From contig NZ_NKFL01000006.1 of the NCBI RefSeq assembly GCF_002223055.1, positions 2,914,001 to 2,978,000 of the forward strand: a stretch of DNA of 64,000 nt, read 5' to 3'. The stretch is from Burkholderia sp. HI2500. GTDB lineage: Bacteria > Pseudomonadota > Gammaproteobacteria > Burkholderiales > Burkholderiaceae. The position numbers and the translations under genes were made by a program. The stretch's first letter is position 1, and every line of letters starts with the position of its first letter. Shown here piece after piece: positions 16,978 to 50,493 of this stretch. A model generated the notes under the pieces. It was not told the DNA's origin. It made no database searches and saw only the letters and a list, made by a program, of their open reading frames with translations.

Positions 16978-18432
16978 TCAGCGCTGCGTCAGCATCATGT
17001 ACATCTGGACCACGACGTCCGGCGAGAACGTGAACGGCACCCAGCCGTAGCCCGTGTGGCGGGCCACCAGCAGGCGGTCGCCATTCGACTGCTTCTGCAC
17101 GGCCATCATCGGGTTCTTCGTCGTCACGAAGCGCCAGCCGGCCGGGATGCCGGGCGGCGGCTCCGGCTGCATCGACGCGCGCGCATGCGCGAGTTCCTCG
17201 ATCAGCTGGCCCAGTTGTTCCGGATGCAGCGTGATCGATTCGCCGTTGATGGTCAGCGTGAGTTCGTTCTGCGTCGGGCGCGACACGTGCAGCGTCGCTT
17301 TGTCGGACGGGGCCGGGGTGGTGGCGACGTCGGCTTCGGCTTCGACTTCAACCGGCGTTTCGGCTTGCGCCGTCGCGACAGTGGCCGTTTCGGCGTCGGC
17401 CGTTGCATCCACCGTTTCGGCCGCCGCCGCCGCGGGCGCGATCACGGCCGGTTCCGCCGCCGGCGTACCGGCCGGTACAGGTTCGACGACTTCGGCTGCA
17501 ACGGCCGTGGCGGCGACTGCGCTCGTCGCGGCTTCCTTGACGACGGCCTCGACCAGCGCCTCGGCGTCGGCGATGGCCTTCGCGTGGTGCTGCGCGGCCG
17601 CTTCGGCTTGTGCGATCGCTTCCGCATGACGCTGCGTGACGGCCTCCGCCTGCGCGGTGGCATCGGCGTGGCGCTGCGCGGCCGCCTCGGCCTGCGCGAT
17701 CGCTTCGGTATGGCGTTGCGTGACGGCTTCGGCCTCGGCGGTCGCTTCGGCATGACGCTGCGCGGCGGCCTGCGTTTCCGCGATCGCCTGCGTGTGCTGC
17801 TGCGCGAGCGCTTCGGCTTCCTTGATTGCAGCCGTATGGCGCTGCGCGGCGGCTTCGGCTTCGGCGATGGCAGCCGCGAGACGCTGCGTGGCCGCTTCGG
17901 CTTCGGCGGTCGCTTCCGCGTGCCGCTTCGCAGCGGCTTCGGCTTCGACGGTCGCGGCTGCATGGCGCTGCGCGGCCGCCTCGGCTTCGGTGGCTGCCGC
18001 GTGATGGCGTTGCGCGGCGGCCTCCGCTTCGGCGATCGCTGCCGCATGGCGCTGCGACGCTGCTTCGGCATCCGCATGACGCTGCGCGAGCGCTTCGGTC
18101 AGCGCGGTGGCTTCCGCATGGCGCTGCGACGCGGCTTCGGCTTGCGCGGTGGCATCGGTATGACGCTGGGCGGCGGCTTCGGCCGCGGCGGTCGCGCTGG
18201 CGTGGCGCTGCTGCGCCGCCTCGGCATCGGCTGCTGCTGCCGTGTGGCGTTGTGCGGCGGCCTGCGCTTCGGCTTCCGCGGCGGCGTGACGCTCGGCCGC
18301 CGCCCGGGCCTCCGCTGCCGCGGCGCGCGCGAAGGCTTCCGCGCTGCGGGCCGCCTGCTGCGCGGCGTGGTGATCGTGGAGGAGCTGATCGACGCCCACG
18401 GTGAGCGAAGCGATCTGATCGTTCAGGTTCAT
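16978..18432 (-). CDS. Ala-rich coiled-coil protein with 14-residue repeats
   Basis: A 484-residue protein in three parts. Residues 1-46 are a helical head (MNLNDQIASLTVGVDQLLHD). Residues 47-294 are 18 head-to-tail repeats of the type QRHAEATAEAEAAA; 17 are exactly 14 residues and the sixth is 10 (QRHADAEAAS). A low-complexity Ala/Val/Thr/Pro linker follows, then a C-terminal globular region of about 105 residues beginning near TLHVSRPTQNELTLTING, with GWRFVTTKNPMMAVQKQ. Two heptads per repeat suggest a long Ala-based helix or coiled coil of about 250 residues. There is no signal peptide. Function unknown; the position between hpnB and hpnA may be chance or may mark an envelope-related role. 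Confidence 0.85.
   Translation of the reverse strand: MNLNDQIASLTVGVDQLLHDHHAAQQAARSAEAFARAAAAEARAAAERHAAAEAEAQAAAQRHTAAAADAEAAQQRHASATAAAEAAAQRHTDATAQAEAASQRHAEATALTEALAQRHADAEAASQRHAAAIAEAEAAAQRHHAAATEAEAAAQRHAAATVEAEAAAKRHAEATAEAEAATQRLAAAIAEAEAAAQRHTAAIKEAEALAQQHTQAIAETQAAAQRHAEATAEAEAVTQRHTEAIAQAEAAAQRHADATAQAEAVTQRHAEAIAQAEAAAQHHAKAIADAEALVEAVVKEAATSAVAATAVAAEVVEPVPAGTPAAEPAVIAPAAAAAETVDATADAETATVATAQAETPVEVEAEADVATTPAPSDKATLHVSRPTQNELTLTINGESITLHPEQLGQLIEELAHARASMQPEPPPGIPAGWRFVTTKNPMMAVQKQSNGDRLLVARHTGYGWVPFTFSPDVVVQMYMMLTQR
17551..18294 (-). repeat. In-frame 42-bp tandem repeats (18 units)
   Basis: The coding DNA for the 14-residue repeats: 17 units of 42 bp and one of 30 bp. The units are diverged at synonymous and non-synonymous positions, yet the QRH/KRH start of each unit is almost fixed. 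Copy number is likely to vary between strains through slippage or recombination. Confidence 0.88.
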
Positions 18433-22505: not shown

Positions 22506-22712
22506 TCAGTGAGGTGAGTCGATACGGGAGCGGGGAACGGAGGTGGCGTCGTCGGCTTCCGCGTCGTCGCGTTCGTCGGGCGCCGGCTCGTCGCGTTCCG
22601 CGAGTACCGCGTCGGCTTCGGCCGCGGCGCGCGCGGCACGTATCGCGGTGCAGCGCTGAGCGTGCCGGATGTCCGACAGTATCCTCAAGAGCCGCGTTGC
22701 TTTGCTTTTCAT
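22506..22712 (-). CDS. Small hypothetical protein
   Basis: A 68-residue protein. The ATG at 22712 has a good CGGGAGAA site 5 bases upstream, which supports a real gene. The N-terminus is basic and helical (MKSKATRLLRILSDIRHAQR); the rest is an Ala/Glu/Asp-rich helix (RAARAAAEADAVLAERDEPAP). Its last codons (encoding SRIDSPH) contain a copy of the CTCCCG-N6-CTCACC repeat found at 45.3 and 48.6 kb. Function unknown. Confidence 0.6.
   Translation of the reverse strand: MKSKATRLLRILSDIRHAQRCTAIRAARAAAEADAVLAERDEPAPDERDDAEADDATSVPRSRIDSPH
22513..22530 (-). repeat. Isolated copy of the 23-bp iteron
   Basis: The plus strand reads GGTGAGTCGATACGGGAG; 20 bp from 22513 are identical to the third unit of the array at 48561-48859. 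It lies at the very 3' end of the small gene on the minus strand. Confidence 0.8.
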
Positions 22713-44997: not shown

Positions 44998-45297
44998 ATG
45001 GCGACCTACAGGCAACTGAGCGCGCAGCTCGAACGGCTTCAGCAAAAGATCGACAAGGAACGTGAAAAGGCGATTGCCGATGCGATTGCCGATATCCGCG
45101 CGAAAATCGAGGAATACGACATTACGCCGGAAGAGCTCGGGTTTCGTCCGGTAGGCGCGGCCGCTGGCGCAGCCAAGCCGAAGCGCGTGTCGCCGCCGAA
45201 ATATTTGAACCCGAAGACGGGTGAAACCTGGAGTGGCCGCGGGCGCTCGCCGACCTGGCTCGGCAAGAATCGCGAGCGTTTCCTGATCAAGGACTGA
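44998..45297 (+). CDS. H-NS-type nucleoid protein
   Basis: A 99-residue H-NS family protein. N-terminal coiled coil (LSAQLERLQQKIDKEREKAI), linker EEYDITPEELGF, and C-terminal DNA-binding domain with the core GETWSGRGRSPTWL. It likely binds AT-rich DNA and silences genes. The 3' flank is special: a CTCCCG-N6-CTCACC repeat abuts the stop codon, followed by a terminator and a structured segment. Confidence 0.93.
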   Translation: MATYRQLSAQLERLQQKIDKEREKAIADAIADIRAKIEEYDITPEELGFRPVGAAAGAAKPKRVSPPKYLNPKTGETWSGRGRSPTWLGKNRERFLIKD

Positions 45298-45598: not shown

Positions 45599-45638
45599 TT
45601 CCCGAAGAGTCTCACCATGGCTCCTGTAAATCCTCACC
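45599..45638 (-). repeat. Two tandem iteron copies
   Basis: On the minus strand: GGTGAGGATTTACAGGAG followed by GGTGAGACTCTTCGGGAA, 22 bp apart. The CAGGAG and CGGGAA variants both occur in the large array. Confidence 0.85.
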
Positions 45639-45900
45639 TTTGACGAAGCGGACGCAGCGTCGCGCTGCACGCCTGCACCGTTTGCGCCGAGCGGATGTGC
45701 TCGGCCGGCGCGCGGCGATGGCTTCCGTACTGGTGTTGCAGGCCCATGATGCGAGCGTTGACGTGGGTCGAACAGTCGGCCGTTCGGCATATAGGCAGCC
45801 GCATGCGCTTCGCCTATGCTTGGGGTTCGCGTCGATCGGCGTATGGCCTGCCCGTGCCGCATGCCGATCGGGTCGTCTTTCGTTACCGCAGGGAGCCGAT

Positions 45901-48258
45901 GTGACCGTTCGCCATCTCGATGCGTTGTTCCAGCCCAAGTCCGTTGCGGTCGTCGGCGCGTCGTCGCGCGCGGGCAGTATCGGCGCGATGGTGTGGTCGC
46001 GCGTGCTCGACGGTGGATTCGAGGGGCCCGTGTGGCCCGTCAATCCGAAGTATCGTGAGCTGCACGGGCATCCGGTCGTTGCCGATGTCGACCGGTTGCC
46101 CGCGCCGCCATCGGTGGCCGTGATCTGCACGCCGCCCGCGACCTGGGCCGGCATCGTGCGCAAGCTCGGCGAGCTCGGCACGCGCGTTGCGGTGATCGTC
46201 GGCGAGGCGCGCACCGATGCCGATCGCACCGCGCTCGATCGCACGCTGAAGGCGGCGAAGCCGTTCGTGCTCCGTATCGTCGGGCCGGGCAGCCTCGGCG
46301 TGCTGTCGCCTGCACGGCACGCGCATTTCGGCGCGCCGGCCTACACGGCACGATCGGGCGGCGTCGCGTGGGTGTCGCAATCGAACGCGCTGACGAACGC
46401 GGTGCTCGGCTGGGCCGATGCACGGGGCCTCGGCTTTTCGCACGTCGTCGCGCTCGGCGGCGAGTCCGACGTCGATGCGGGCGACGTGCTCGATTATCTC
46501 GCGAGCGATCCCGGCACGCGCGCGATCCTGCTCGAACTCGATACCGTGCGCGCCGCGCGCAAGTTCATGTCGGCCGCGCGCGCGGCCGCACGCAACAAGC
46601 CGGTGCTCGCATTGCGCACCGGCCGCGCCGATCCCGGCGACGCGCTCTATACGGCGGCGTTCCAGCGCGCGGGGATGGTGCGGGTGGATGCGCTCGACGA
46701 TCTGCTCGACGAGATCGAGACGCTCGGCGTCGGCCGCGTCACGGCGCGCGGCGCGGCCACGCTCGTGACGAGCGACGCGGGTGTCGCGAAACTCGCGGTC
46801 GATGCGGTGGCCGAGGTGCGCGATGTGCTGACCGACTGGTCGCCCGCGGCCACGTCGGCGGTGTCGGCGGCGCTGCCGCATCTTGCATCGCCCGGCAATC
46901 CGCTGACGCTGGGCGACGATGCGCGCCCCGAGCATTTCGCCGCGGCGGTCAAGGCGCTCGCACCGTTCCCGCAAACGGGCACGCTGTTCGTCGTCCATTC
47001 GACTTCCCACAGCGCGCCGGCCGACGCGGTTGCGCACACGCTGATCGAATCACGGCAGTACGCGCATCGCGGCATCCTCGCGTGTTTCTTCGGCGCGGTC
47101 GACGCGGCGACGCGCGATGCGCTGCACGCGAACGGCATTCCGGTGCACACCACGCCGCAGCGGCTCGCGCGCGCGTATGCGCGTCTCGTCGACTACAACC
47201 TCGGGCGGCAACTGCTGATGCAAACGCCCGAGGGTACGCCGCTGCAGCCGGCCGAGTGCGTGGCATCCGCGCAGGCCGACGCGCGCCGGATGGTCGAAGC
47301 CGGCCAGCATGAACTGACCGGCGAAGCCGCGCTGCGCTGGCTGTCTCATTTTGGCCTGCAGGGCGAGCCTGCCGTCGAGCCGGCCGGAAAGAAAGTCGTC
47401 GATGTCACCGTCGACATGTACGACGATTCGAACTTCGGCCCAGTGTTTCGCTATGCCGTGCCGCCCGCGGACGGCGTATCGGCGCCGTTCGTCGTCTATG
47501 GCCTGCCACCGCTGAACACCGTGCTTGCCCGCGCGGTGATGGAGCGTTCGCCGTATGCACGCAGCACACCCATCGAGCCGACGCTCGACGCGTTGACGGC
47601 GCTGTCGCAGGTCGTCTGCGACGTGCGTGAAGTCGTTGCGATGTCGGTCACGCTGCGCGTGCTGTCCGACCGCGCGCACGTGATCGCGCCGCGCATCACG
47701 CTGGCAGCGGGGCGCAGCCGGCTCGCGATCATGCCGTATCCACGCCACCTCGAGCAGACGCTCGAGTGGCGCGGCGAGACGGTGACGATCCGCCCGATCC
47801 GTCCGGAAGACGAGGCCGCGCACAACGAACTGCTCGGCGCGATGACGCCGGAGGATCTGCGGATGCGTTTCTTCGGCGCGGTGCGCAGCTTCGATCATTC
47901 GCAGGTCGCGCGCATGACGCAGATCGATTACGACCGTGAGATGGCCTTCATCGTGTCGTTCACCGATGTGTCGGGGCGCGACCACACGCTCGCGGTGGTG
48001 CGCGCGGTGGCCGATCCCGACAACGAGACGGCGGAGTTCGCGATCGCGGTACGACCCGATCAGAAGGGCAAGGGGCTTGGCCGGCTGATGATGACCCGCA
48101 TCATCGACTACGCGCGCTCGCGCGGAACCGCCTGGATGATCGGCGAGGCGCTGCGCGAGAACACGGCGATGATCTCGCTGGCGAAGGCGTGCGGGTTCGC
48201 GGTGTCGACGACGGAGGAGCCTGGCGTCGTGGGCTTCAGGATGAAGCTGCAGCCGTAG
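45901..48258 (+). CDS. PatZ-type protein acetyltransferase (CoA-ligase/GNAT)
   Basis: A 785-residue two-part protein. The GTG at 45901 follows GCAGGGAGCC and gives the family N-terminus TVRHLDALFQPKSVAVVGAS. Residues 1-420 resemble NDP-forming acyl-CoA synthetase subdomains (CoA-binding GASSRAGSIG, WVSQSNALTNAVL, GDDARPEHFAAAV). The region 455-600, where full-length homologues keep an ATP-grasp fold, is short and lacks clear motifs. A GNAT domain ends the protein (VTIRPIRPEDEAAHNELLGA, DQKGKGLGRLMM). PatZ/Pat enzymes acetylate lysines, for example on acetyl-CoA synthetase, to control carbon flow. It sits between two H-NS-type genes and the iteron loci. Confidence 0.9.
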   Translation: MTVRHLDALFQPKSVAVVGASSRAGSIGAMVWSRVLDGGFEGPVWPVNPKYRELHGHPVVADVDRLPAPPSVAVICTPPATWAGIVRKLGELGTRVAVIVGEARTDADRTALDRTLKAAKPFVLRIVGPGSLGVLSPARHAHFGAPAYTARSGGVAWVSQSNALTNAVLGWADARGLGFSHVVALGGESDVDAGDVLDYLASDPGTRAILLELDTVRAARKFMSAARAAARNKPVLALRTGRADPGDALYTAAFQRAGMVRVDALDDLLDEIETLGVGRVTARGAATLVTSDAGVAKLAVDAVAEVRDVLTDWSPAATSAVSAALPHLASPGNPLTLGDDARPEHFAAAVKALAPFPQTGTLFVVHSTSHSAPADAVAHTLIESRQYAHRGILACFFGAVDAATRDALHANGIPVHTTPQRLARAYARLVDYNLGRQLLMQTPEGTPLQPAECVASAQADARRMVEAGQHELTGEAALRWLSHFGLQGEPAVEPAGKKVVDVTVDMYDDSNFGPVFRYAVPPADGVSAPFVVYGLPPLNTVLARAVMERSPYARSTPIEPTLDALTALSQVVCDVREVVAMSVTLRVLSDRAHVIAPRITLAAGRSRLAIMPYPRHLEQTLEWRGETVTIRPIRPEDEAAHNELLGAMTPEDLRMRFFGAVRSFDHSQVARMTQIDYDREMAFIVSFTDVSGRDHTLAVVRAVADPDNETAEFAIAVRPDQKGKGLGRLMMTRIIDYARSRGTAWMIGEALRENTAMISLAKACGFAVSTTEEPGVVGFRMKLQP

Positions 48259-48560
48259 CGTCTGTCGGCGGCCCGACGCGCGGAGGCGTTGCATGCGGTG
48301 GATGTCTCCGGCCTCCCGGCATGTTCCGAATGTCCCCGGTCAGGAATGCAGAGCATTCGAGCCTGCGTCGCGAGCGAAGCAACCGCGAACGTGTCGGCGC
48401 CTGTTCGCACCGGAAATATCGACGCGCAAATGGCACCGATCCGGCACCGCGAGACGCGTACCGCTTGCCGCGATATTCGCTCCGCAGCGCTGTTTCAGGC
48501 AAGGTGTCCGCACGCATTTACCGTCGCATTCCACCTTCGAAAATTCGAACTTGCCCAAAA
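48259..48560. other. Gene-free spacer before iteron array
   Basis: About 300 bp after the PatZ-type gene with no credible gene. It becomes AT-rich towards the array (48500-48560) and contains TTCGAA repeated with a 2-bp spacer near 48534-48547. Confidence 0.55.
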
Positions 48561-48859
48561 GGTGAGATTTTTCGGGAGCTGTCGGTGAGCTTCTCCGGGA
48601 AGGTTGGGGTGAGTCGATACGGGAGCGCTTGGTGAGCCGATACAGGAGCACTCGGTGAGCCTTCCCGGGAATGGCCGGTGAGCACCTGCGGGAGCCGCCG
48701 GTGAGCCTTTCCGGGGCGCATGGGTGAGGATCTGCGGGAAGTGTCGGTGAGGACATCCGGGACGCTTGGGTGAGGGTCTCCAGGAGCCTGGGTGAGCTTT
48801 TTCGGGAGGGTTGGGTGAGCGCTTGCGGGACGCAAAGGTGAGGCTTTTCGGGAGCGTCC
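48561..48859. repeat. Array of 13 GGTGAG iterons, 23-bp period
   Basis: Thirteen head-to-tail units (eleven of 23 bp, one of 24, one of 22) with consensus GGTGAG-N6-CRGGRN-N5. GGTGAG and the C and GG of the second block are invariant in all thirteen; the N6 and N5 stretches vary. The period is not a multiple of three, and all three minus frames are open across it, so it is not read as a normal repeat protein. There are no unique spacers of CRISPR type. It lies 3' of the H-NS-like gene at 48947, reading CTCCCG...CTCACC in that gene's sense. Confidence 0.93.
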
Positions 48860-48883
48860 GGATGCACGTCTCCCGCAAGCGCA

Positions 48884-48936
48884 ACGCCGGCCTGGGCCGG
48901 CGTCATGCGGGGTGCGGGCACGCATGAACCGTGCCC
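48884..48936 (-). terminator. Two hairpins after second H-NS-like gene
   Basis: A 9-bp stem at 48884-48903 (loop 2) and a 7-bp stem at 48916-48936 (loop 7). Neither has a T-run on the minus strand. They separate the gene's stop from the iteron array. Confidence 0.5.
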
Positions 48937-48946
48937 GTGGCTACAT

Positions 48947-49489
48947 TCAGGCAGCGAGTTTCGACGCCGCGTCGTTTACCTGGTCGCGCGAAATCGCCAG
49001 TTCCTCGAGGTGCGGATGGGCATAGACGGCGCCGGTTTCGCGCTCGAGGCGGGCGATCGTCAGCGCACAGCGCGCGGTGTCCTTCGGCATTGCGATGAAG
49101 CGCTTGACCGATTCGCCGGACGTGAATGCTTCGAACAGCGCGCCGCGCACGTCGTCCGGAAGCGTCTTGGTCCACTGGTACGGCTTGCCGTTGAACGTGA
49201 TCGACGGCGGCAGCGTGCGTTCCTTCTTGGTCGCCGTGATGAGCCCGTAGGTGCGGGCCGCGTCGCCGATCTGCTCGGGCGAGAAGAGTTCGTCGGGCGT
49301 GATGTCGAACTGCTCGATGTAGCTCTCGATCGCCTGCATTGCAGCGGTACGATCGTCGCGCTTCTTCTGCGCGCGCGCGACGATATCGCGCAGCTCGTCC
49401 GCCTCTTCGGGCGTGATCGTGAAGCTTGCCTGCTTCTGCTGAAGTTCGGAGAAACGCTGGAATTCTTGATCGTTCAGAAGTTTGGCCAT
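48947..49489 (-). CDS. H-NS-like hypothetical protein
   Basis: A 180-residue protein; ATG at 49489 chosen, with 49498 and 49519 also possible. The N-terminal 75 residues are helical (FQRFSELQQKQASFTITPEE) and end in YIEQFDITPDELFSPEQ, close to the EYDITPEELGF linker of the H-NS protein at 44998. The C-terminal part (TFNGKPYQWTKTLPDDVRGA, AFTSGESVKRFIAMP) is not a standard H-NS domain and I do not recognise it. It may oligomerise with H-NS proteins and bind a different ligand. Confidence 0.7.
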   Translation of the reverse strand: MAKLLNDQEFQRFSELQQKQASFTITPEEADELRDIVARAQKKRDDRTAAMQAIESYIEQFDITPDELFSPEQIGDAARTYGLITATKKERTLPPSITFNGKPYQWTKTLPDDVRGALFEAFTSGESVKRFIAMPKDTARCALTIARLERETGAVYAHPHLEELAISRDQVNDAASKLAA

Positions 49490-49671
49490 GACATCCATCG
49501 GACACGACGGCCGCGACAACCGGCCGCCGTAGTTTTTGAGAGGGCCGCTATTTTAGCGTAGCGCCGTGGGCGCACGATATGGCACCGTGCATCGCGCTCC
49601 GCAGAGGGGTTGCGCGCGACCGGGGGCAACGCGATAGCGCCGCCCCCGGTGCGCTCCGCCGAGCCCGCGCG

Positions 49672-50493
49672 TCAGCAGGTCTCGTCGCGGCACATCGACA
49701 GATGGGCGGCTGTCTCGCGCACCCCTTCGACGACCGTGTCGACGGACGGCGCCATATGCGCATCGATCCGGCGCATGTACGGGCAGGTGAGCACCGCGAT
49801 CGCATGGCCGGACGGCCCGAGGATCGGTGCGGTCAGGTCGGTCACGCCGTACGCCTGGCGGCTGTCCTCGCGCAGGTAGCCGTCCTGCCGGATGGACTGG
49901 CACGCATACGCGAGTTCCTGCTCGTTCAATGGCGCTTCGCCCTTGACCTTGCGGTGCTCGGCGAGCATGTGCGCGCGCTGCTCGGCACCCTGGAACGCCA
50001 GCATCACGCGCCCCGATGCCGTATCGACGAGCCCGACACGCGAGCCGAGCCGGACCGACACGCCCCACGGGCCGGGCCCGTCGACCTGCGCGATCACGAG
50101 CAGGTTGCCGCGATCGTAGACGGACAGGTGACACGATTGCTCGGAGGCATCGGCGAAACGCTGCATCGGCGGCAACGCCTCGGCGATCAGCCGGCTCATC
50201 GGCGGATGGCGGTGCGCGAGCGAGAACAGCTTGAGGCTGAGCGTGTAGCGGTCGCCGCCGGTCGAGCGCATCACGTAGCGGCGCGCGACGAGGCGTTCGA
50301 GCATCCGGTAGATCTCGCTCGCGTTGCGGCCGAGTTCCTTCGTGATTTCGGTGCGGGTGAGGCCTTCTTTCTGCTCCGACAGGAGTTCGAGAATGTCGAG
50401 ACCCTTGTCGAGCGCGGGTGCGCGATAGCGGTCGATTGCGCCCATCGATTCCCGTGCGTCGCAGCCGGGAAGCAGGTCGTTGGTTGTTTGCAT
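49672..50493 (-). CDS. IclR-family regulator
   Basis: A 273-residue IclR-type regulator. The winged helix-turn-helix is at about residues 25-85 (APALDKGLDILELLSEQKEGLT, NASEIYRMLERLVARRYVMR). The effector domain follows (SCHLSVYDRGNLLVIAQVDGPG, GRVMLAFQG, ILGPSGHAIAVLTCPY). IclR proteins usually control nearby catabolic genes; the divergent FAH-family gene at 51159 is the likely target. Confidence 0.92.
   Translation of the reverse strand: MQTTNDLLPGCDARESMGAIDRYRAPALDKGLDILELLSEQKEGLTRTEITKELGRNASEIYRMLERLVARRYVMRSTGGDRYTLSLKLFSLAHRHPPMSRLIAEALPPMQRFADASEQSCHLSVYDRGNLLVIAQVDGPGPWGVSVRLGSRVGLVDTASGRVMLAFQGAEQRAHMLAEHRKVKGEAPLNEQELAYACQSIRQDGYLREDSRQAYGVTDLTAPILGPSGHAIAVLTCPYMRRIDAHMAPSVDTVVEGVRETAAHLSMCRDETC

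Follow-up and report, generated by a model that had tools for sequence, protein, structure and literature searches.

A remote array of chromosome 2 iterons conserved across Burkholderia

What might a run of 13 short tandem repeats between two Burkholderia genes be for, and which protein would recognise it? The repeats lie in a 64,000-nucleotide stretch of the Burkholderia sp. HI2500 genome (contig NZ_NKFL01000006.1, positions 2,914,001 to 2,978,000), which we call the window and whose numbering we use unless a contig is named. A first-pass annotation, made from the letters of the window, had reported 13 contiguous units of 23 bp, read them either as a multi-site landing array for a DNA-binding protein or as an RNA decoy, and known of no described element of this form. 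The count and spacing stand: exact GGTGAGNNNNNNCRGG matches number 13 at 48561–48852 on the plus strand, with start-to-start distances of 23 bp save one of 24 and one of 22, and shuffled windows yield a mean of 0.25 matches and at most 2. Across the whole window there are 17 matches, the four outside the array being three on the minus strand and one on the plus strand. From 611 units with no more than one core mismatch, drawn from 50 genomes, the motif can be refined to approximately GGTGAG-NN-YYT-N-CRGG-A, in which 93% of units have A at position 17 and 93% have T at position 11. The array is real, conserved and for the most part explained, as a set of secondary-chromosome iterons that lies far from the origin and has, in the literature consulted, a single printed mention.

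The explanation comes from the distribution of the motif in the genome (8.26 Mb, 27 contigs), which has 92 exact pattern matches compared with 25 for a reversed-pattern control. Forty-one of the 92 fall within C6:2,781,986-2,962,852, a 181-kb interval that spans ori2 and ends at the array. The intergenic region before the gene of a 455-amino acid protein, RepA2, is packed with 14 exact sites that share one orientation. RepA2 carries the Rep3_N and Rep3_C domains of a Rep_3 initiator; after repA2 come parB and parA, encoded on the opposite strand, and upstream there are KfrA-type and tyrosine-recombinase genes. Judged from its genes, the repA2/iteron region is the origin of the second chromosome, ori2. 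Because the same motif forms the origin iterons beside repA2-parB-parA, the array is a tandem set of ori2 iterons; its core is identical to the ori2 cluster consensus, and it shares a replicon with the initiator gene, 161 kb from repA2 on contig C6. The earlier remark that no replication or partition gene lies nearby misleads, with repA2-parB-parA ~161 kb away on the same contig. A PDB sequence search yielded nothing beyond a weak match with the plasmid Pi initiator (2nra, E 0.007).

Further copies of the iteron accompany ori2. Eight exact satellite iterons lie on its KfrA side (G000:C6:2781986-2797927; G000 is this genome), all on the minus strand and pointing away from the origin. A single GGTGAGGATTTTCGGG site is found at G000:C6:2814289, ~9–14 kb downstream of repA2, and the identical 16-mer is found on this side of repA2 in 7/7 genomes, as judged from positions compared by eye.

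Both the motif and the locus are kept across the genus. The tandem-pair pattern (6–9 bp between units) is present in 65/65 Burkholderia genomes, and the reversed pattern gave no match. We retrieved the locus from the 64 other genomes through the flanking gene for a 190-amino acid protein, itself present in 65/65, and at least one exact array-strand iteron stands there in every genome. Chains of at least eight units, with one core mismatch allowed, occur in 50/65 genomes, and four others (G013, G024, G063 and G064) have 6–9 exact units with gaps. The distance from the flanking gene to repA2 is measurable in the 49 of 65 genomes that have both on one contig (16 do not); it ranges from 98 to 272 kb, with a median of 151 kb, and the gene is downstream of repA2 in 45/49 and at the mirror position in 4/49. 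A second set of sites lies beside an H-NS-type gene on the left of the array: at least three minus-strand sites, a single one and then a pair, are present in 63/65 genomes, the retrieved stretches of the other two (G033 and G041) ending at a contig end. A spacing of 301 bp between the single site and the pair is the commonest in Burkholderia (21/30 loci).

Conservation within the units is uneven. Across 50 aligned arrays, the chains of which allow one core mismatch, majority-base conservation is 0.984 in the core, 0.82 in the N6 segment and 0.71 in the flanks, and in the spacer it is 0.685 with position 17 and 0.645 without it. The core exceeds N6 plus spacer (p 1.6e-30), and N6 exceeds the spacer (p 7.6e-9), these p values being guides only because alignment columns are not independent. 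The earlier view of selection on two short blocks a fixed distance apart is supported over the 50 genomes (98.4% in the core against 64.5–68.5% in the spacers). We also scored units, only at positions outside the search pattern, with a matrix whose training set was 273 exact sites from ori2 regions in 20/65 genomes. Origin sites average 10.5, computed on the matrix's own 273 training sites, and the background, the first 30 of the 92 genome matches, averages -15.9, with 3/30 above zero and a maximum of 2.9. The 13 array units range from -7.5 to 16.1 and as a set lie above the 30 background matches (p 1e-5). The two ends carry the strong sites: in nearly all of the 50 arrays the first and last units equal origin sites in strength, with medians of 14.6 and 14.5 and scores above 5 in 100% and 94% of cases. 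Inner units, 511 in number, are weak, with a median of 0.0 and 14% above 5; what they keep is mainly the core, and the A and T runs seen in origin iterons are mostly missing from them.

A sequence variant, which we call the GATAC class, also links the array to the origin. Exact GGTGAGYCGATACRGGAG occurs only four times in this genome: at ori2 site 13, at site 22513 and in array units 3 and 4. The pattern GGTGAGNNGATACRGGA is matched in 62/65 genomes, all but G021, G039 and G043; its positions are given here for the 56 genomes G000–G055, of which G055 may have further matches. A GATAC-class site stands 232–254 bp upstream of the repA2 match in 50/56, no more than 1.4 kb array-side of the flanking gene in 35/56, and 13–38 kb origin-side of the flanking gene in at least 35/56 (range searched 10–40 kb), this last count being a lower bound since matches across contig ends, as in G033, are not joined. 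All three positions are occupied in 26/56 genomes. We infer that the variant is an operator-like class of site.

We consider it probable that the array is a remote cluster of RepA2-binding sites that restrains re-firing of ori2 by titration of the initiator, by handcuffing, or by both. Judged by sequence, the array and the ori2 iterons are one motif on one replicon, with a conserved place and a conserved core, and we infer from this that RepA2 binds the array. An H-NS-like protein had been put forward as the partner of the array; RepA2 is the likelier binder because the array motif is the chromosome 2 origin iteron. The broader proposal of a multi-site landing array for a DNA-binding protein is supported by the core conservation. 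Replication forks on chromosome 2 (c2) of Burkholderia cenocepacia travel at ~33 kb/min (Du et al. 2016, PMC4948915), so the array, at 161 kb, would be duplicated ~5 min after initiation. Minutes after ori2 fires, then, a passing fork would duplicate the array and satellites and provide more RepA2 sites outside the origin. The extra array sites would lower free RepA2, and/or array-bound RepA2 would pair with origin-bound RepA2 (handcuffing), and ori2 would thereby be kept from a second firing within the same cycle. Core-only inner units without A and T runs would fit a site that is bound and does not melt.

Several observations weigh against such a role. In 11/65 genomes the locus has merely 1–2 units; these are the 11 genomes lowest in RepA2 identity (91–93%), and the array therefore looks like a single expansion on the other branch, as judged from RepA2 identities without a tree. 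The inner units of the array in this genome score -7.5 to 9.8 on the origin matrix, some overlapping the background, and may bind weakly or serve another purpose. The conserved position of the array could come in part from conserved gene order. Beyond the genus the array is missing: in a comparison with public records that took the best 80 of 127 loci with the flanking gene, all 31 Burkholderia loci have 2–19 exact array-strand sites, and 49/49 more distant loci keep the flanking gene with zero array-strand sites within 1.2 kb. The distant group comprises Paraburkholderia, Caballeronia and Trinickia by title, together with four loci titled Burkholderia sp. (L279, L286, L300 and L313) that were placed there on an anchor protein only 71–77% identical. 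RepA2 is 90–92% identical in 9/12 genomes of other genera, picked for having site pairs; two have relatives at 37–39%, and one has none. With 11/65 genomes at 1–2 units, 49/49 distant loci lacking the array and RepA2 so similar elsewhere, the array is, on these genome comparisons, not needed for chromosome 2 control in general.

The sites beside the H-NS gene have a wider range. All 10 of the distant loci with an H-NS gene in view (L279 and L313 among them) have two sites beside it, 347–351 bp apart and with matrix scores of 10–13; because distant loci have these sites and not the array, we take the paired sites to be the older element and the array to be a Burkholderia addition. Close pairs of the core pattern (5–30 bp apart) occur in 87/200 sampled genomes of the family, spread over 10/25 genera including Burkholderia. 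In one genome of a distant genus (G065), 22-bp tandem GGTGAG...CAGG repeats lie directly upstream of a repA relative with 37% identity (C80:3130-4952). A long "array" in genus g3 (G138) proved unrelated: its repeat unit is 14 bp, and its genome has no RepA2 relative.

Other functions for the locus can be set against restraint of ori2. RepA2 bound at the array might act locally, by regulating how neighbouring genes (the H-NS gene, for instance) are transcribed or by shaping chromosome structure, a minor possibility that deserves some weight. The greater age of the H-NS-side sites, the prevalence of their 301-bp spacing and the presence of a GATAC-class site both in the array and upstream of repA2 would all suit it; however, the single H-NS-side site follows the H-NS stop codon and is not at the promoter of that gene, and the array sits between two genes that both end towards it, where a promoter is unexpected and a sigma-70-like one was not found. 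We find it rather improbable that the bound array affects the replication fork, as a pause or roadblock, or that it marks space or timing. The array and the eight satellites across ori2 do point away from the origin, and in the cited passages of Du et al. (PMC4948915), origin-proximal sequences of the c2 left arm are slightly less abundant and the second iteron cluster is anticlockwise, taken here as the left arm; the three H-NS-side sites, on the other hand, point the opposite way.

Descent of the array from an integrated replicon, as its relict or as a secondary origin, is very unlikely, although an origin-like form of the motif does exist in G065, where the 22-bp tandem iterons (C80:3130-3244) lie ~0.5 kb upstream of the repA relative at C80:3693. 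No Rep family occurs in the scanned neighbours, the array probably grew in place, given that the genomes of lowest RepA2 identity have 1–2 units, and the cited passages of Du et al. (PMC4948915) have c2 replicating from its one predicted origin region. The 686-bp intergenic stretch holding the array is also less AT-rich than the 1954-bp ori2 stretch of this genome (GC 64% against 55%; lowest 60-bp GC 43% against 37%), and it has neither a DnaA-like box nor CTGTGCA, of which the longer ori2 stretch has 3 and 5; the missing modules count only weakly as evidence, the array stretch being the shorter of the two. Least credible is the other first-pass proposal, that a transcript of the array serves through its GGTGAG blocks as an RNA decoy for 16S rRNA, in favour of which we can cite no more than that GGTGAG resembles a ribosome-binding sequence. 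There is no sigma-70-like promoter in 48100–49100, the predicted fold is not clearly better than that of shuffled sequences (z -1.68, with 7/100 shuffles doing as well), and C.GGGA, superfluous for a decoy, is part of the conserved core in a motif that is the ori2 iteron.

The same iteron occurs at the origin of the third chromosome. The repA3 product, ~36% identical to RepA2, is encoded on another contig that has its own iterons, and chromosome 2-type iterons are present at the chromosome 3 origin (ori3) in 16/20 genomes examined. In 14/20 they form a pair, with starts 33–34 bp apart, 0.5–0.7 kb upstream of the chromosome 3-type block; 2/20 have a single site and 4/20 none (G014, G024, G052 and G064). 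Conservation among the 14 genomes is 0.893 in N6, 0.598 in the spacer and 0.675 in the flanks, these being the informative values, as the core stands at 100% by construction (rows were selected by exact match). In this genome the pair is at C7:1155373 and C7:1155406, within G000:C7:1152300-1157000. Its presence suggests that RepA2, or a cross-reacting RepA3, may bind at ori3, with possible cross-talk between the replicons. Tentatively, and with more doubt than conviction, we speculate that RepA2 might run a two-replicon network in which it fires ori2, the array shuts ori2 off at fork passage, and the ori3 pair ties chromosome 3 initiation to chromosome 2. If true, such a network would combine a strong-ended array with a core-only middle, operator-like GATAC units and an influence of RepA2 on ori3. 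A further strong chromosome 2-type site lies on the repA3 contig at G000:C7:1198568 and at G018:C1:138246, with similar flanks in both. A GATAC-class match that recurs on repA3 contigs was set aside as coding conservation: 10 of the 28 rows outside every class were retrieved, and 10/10 fall inside long open frames and have flanks that are nearly identical.

Table 1. Features of the array and its surroundings, in window coordinates.
Feature	Coordinates	Strand	Remarks
Iteron array, 13 tandem units, GGTGAG-N6-CRGG-A, 22–24 bp apart	48561..48853	+	Chromosome 2 initiator iterons by sequence
First array unit	48557..48577	+	Full origin-iteron match (A run, T run); non-pattern matrix score 16.1
Last array unit	48833..48853	+	Full origin-iteron match; non-pattern matrix score 14.5
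Array units 3 and 4	48608..48647	+	GATAC-class iterons; variant also ~240 bp upstream of repA2
H-NS family gene	44998..45297	+	PF00816, E 3.4e-12
Strong single iteron, 2 bp past H-NS stop codon	45300..45315	-	Matrix score 15.9; kept in genus
Iteron pair, starts 22 bp apart (45601, 45623)	45601..45638	-	301 bp from single site
CoA-binding/succinyl-CoA-ligase-like and GNAT acetyltransferase gene	45640..48258	+	Left array neighbour; start codon uncertain
190-amino acid conserved protein gene	48947..49519	-	Right array neighbour; synteny anchor
Single GATAC-class iteron	22513..22529	+	~26 kb from array, on origin side

The H-NS-like gene that had been called adjacent to the array is real, yet it lies 3.3 kb away, and the direct neighbour is the gene of the 190-amino acid protein, which has no Pfam match at E 0.001. 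Elsewhere in the window, a tandem repeat search found a long imperfect 42-bp/84-bp repeat at 17581–18303, whose period is a multiple of 3 and which is perhaps coding.

Other identities for the array were considered and rejected. A coding repeat does not fit: although one or more frames, all of them on the minus strand, are open in 45/50 arrays, and stops alone therefore do not exclude coding, no frame is open in 5/50, the aligned arrays fall into three length classes modulo 3 (29, 12 and 9 arrays), and the frame is shifted by the spacings of 22–25 bp. Nor is this a CRISPR array, having a 23-bp period with ~7 bp between 16-bp units and not near-identical repeats with unique spacers. The only matches to known RNA or CRISPR families in 48000–50000, SNORD71 and CRISPR-DR28, are both below gathering, CRISPR-DR28 beside the array scoring 21.4 bits against a gathering score of 35. 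We also looked for a crtS-like site on chromosome 1 with a strict motif in seven genomes, and among the matches listed on contigs without repA2 or repA3 no recurrent site is apparent (two in G010, one each in G018, G021 and G028, none in G009 and G012; the rows of the seventh genome, G030, are outside this list).

Among known elements, plasmid incompatibility iterons, such as those of P1 incA and the R6K gamma origin, are likewise ~22-bp tandem head-to-tail repeats served by a Rep_3 initiator, and they lie beside the rep gene. The array, at 161 kb from repA2, differs from an incA-type locus in this respect. The closest described element is in Burkholderia itself, contrary to the first-pass statement of novelty: the cited passages of Du et al. 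(2016, PMC4948915) print the iteron consensus ctCCCGAAAAacCTCACCTtt for B. cenocepacia c2, and one sentence in the S1 Table legend places another c2 cluster 140 kb away from the origin. That consensus is the reverse complement of our array motif and the replicon type is the same, so this cluster of strain J2315 is almost certainly the same locus. The legend and cited passages give no coordinate, unit structure, conservation or function for it, and among the open-licence papers searched no title or abstract seems to analyse the remote c2 cluster. The consensus and one printed mention were thus known before; the genus-wide conservation and the unit design are new.

Functional parallels come from further afield. 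The main text of a 2026 survey (PMC13342612), in the part consulted, does not use the word "iteron", and it asks for timers to be identified in additional systems. As we read the relevant parts of PMC6090056 and PMC3937223, once-per-cycle firing of secondary chromosomes is known mostly from Vibrio. There, crtS also lies off ori2 and acts through the initiator, but it is on chromosome 1 and promotes replication, whereas the array is on the repA2-carrying contig, chromosome 2 (PMC6090056, PMC3937223). Escherichia coli datA, as described in part of PMC3937223, resembles the array in having off-origin initiator sites proposed to lower initiator activity once duplicated; the likeness is one of description, and datA involves DnaA, ATP hydrolysis and a primary chromosome. 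The nearest parallel is with the Vibrio cholerae RctB sites outside ori2, which titrate the initiator and inhibit ori2 (Baek and Chattoraj 2014, PMC3937223), a precedent that, in the passages cited, is experimental (PMC3937223; review PMC6090056). As at RctB- or datA-type titrating loci, the predicted sites here lie off the origin and would be duplicated early (161 kb, ~5 min; sites assigned by their letters), and like the RctB sites they are on the same secondary chromosome as the origin; the array differs in its tandem 23-bp units at ~150 kb, its paired satellites and its initiator. Compared with these systems, the locus is a predicted cluster of secondary-chromosome initiator sites in a lineage beyond Vibrio, kept genus-wide and with a clear internal design, and its interest lies in that conservation, in the design of the array, in the link to ori3 and in a testable wiring from chromosome 2 to chromosome 3.
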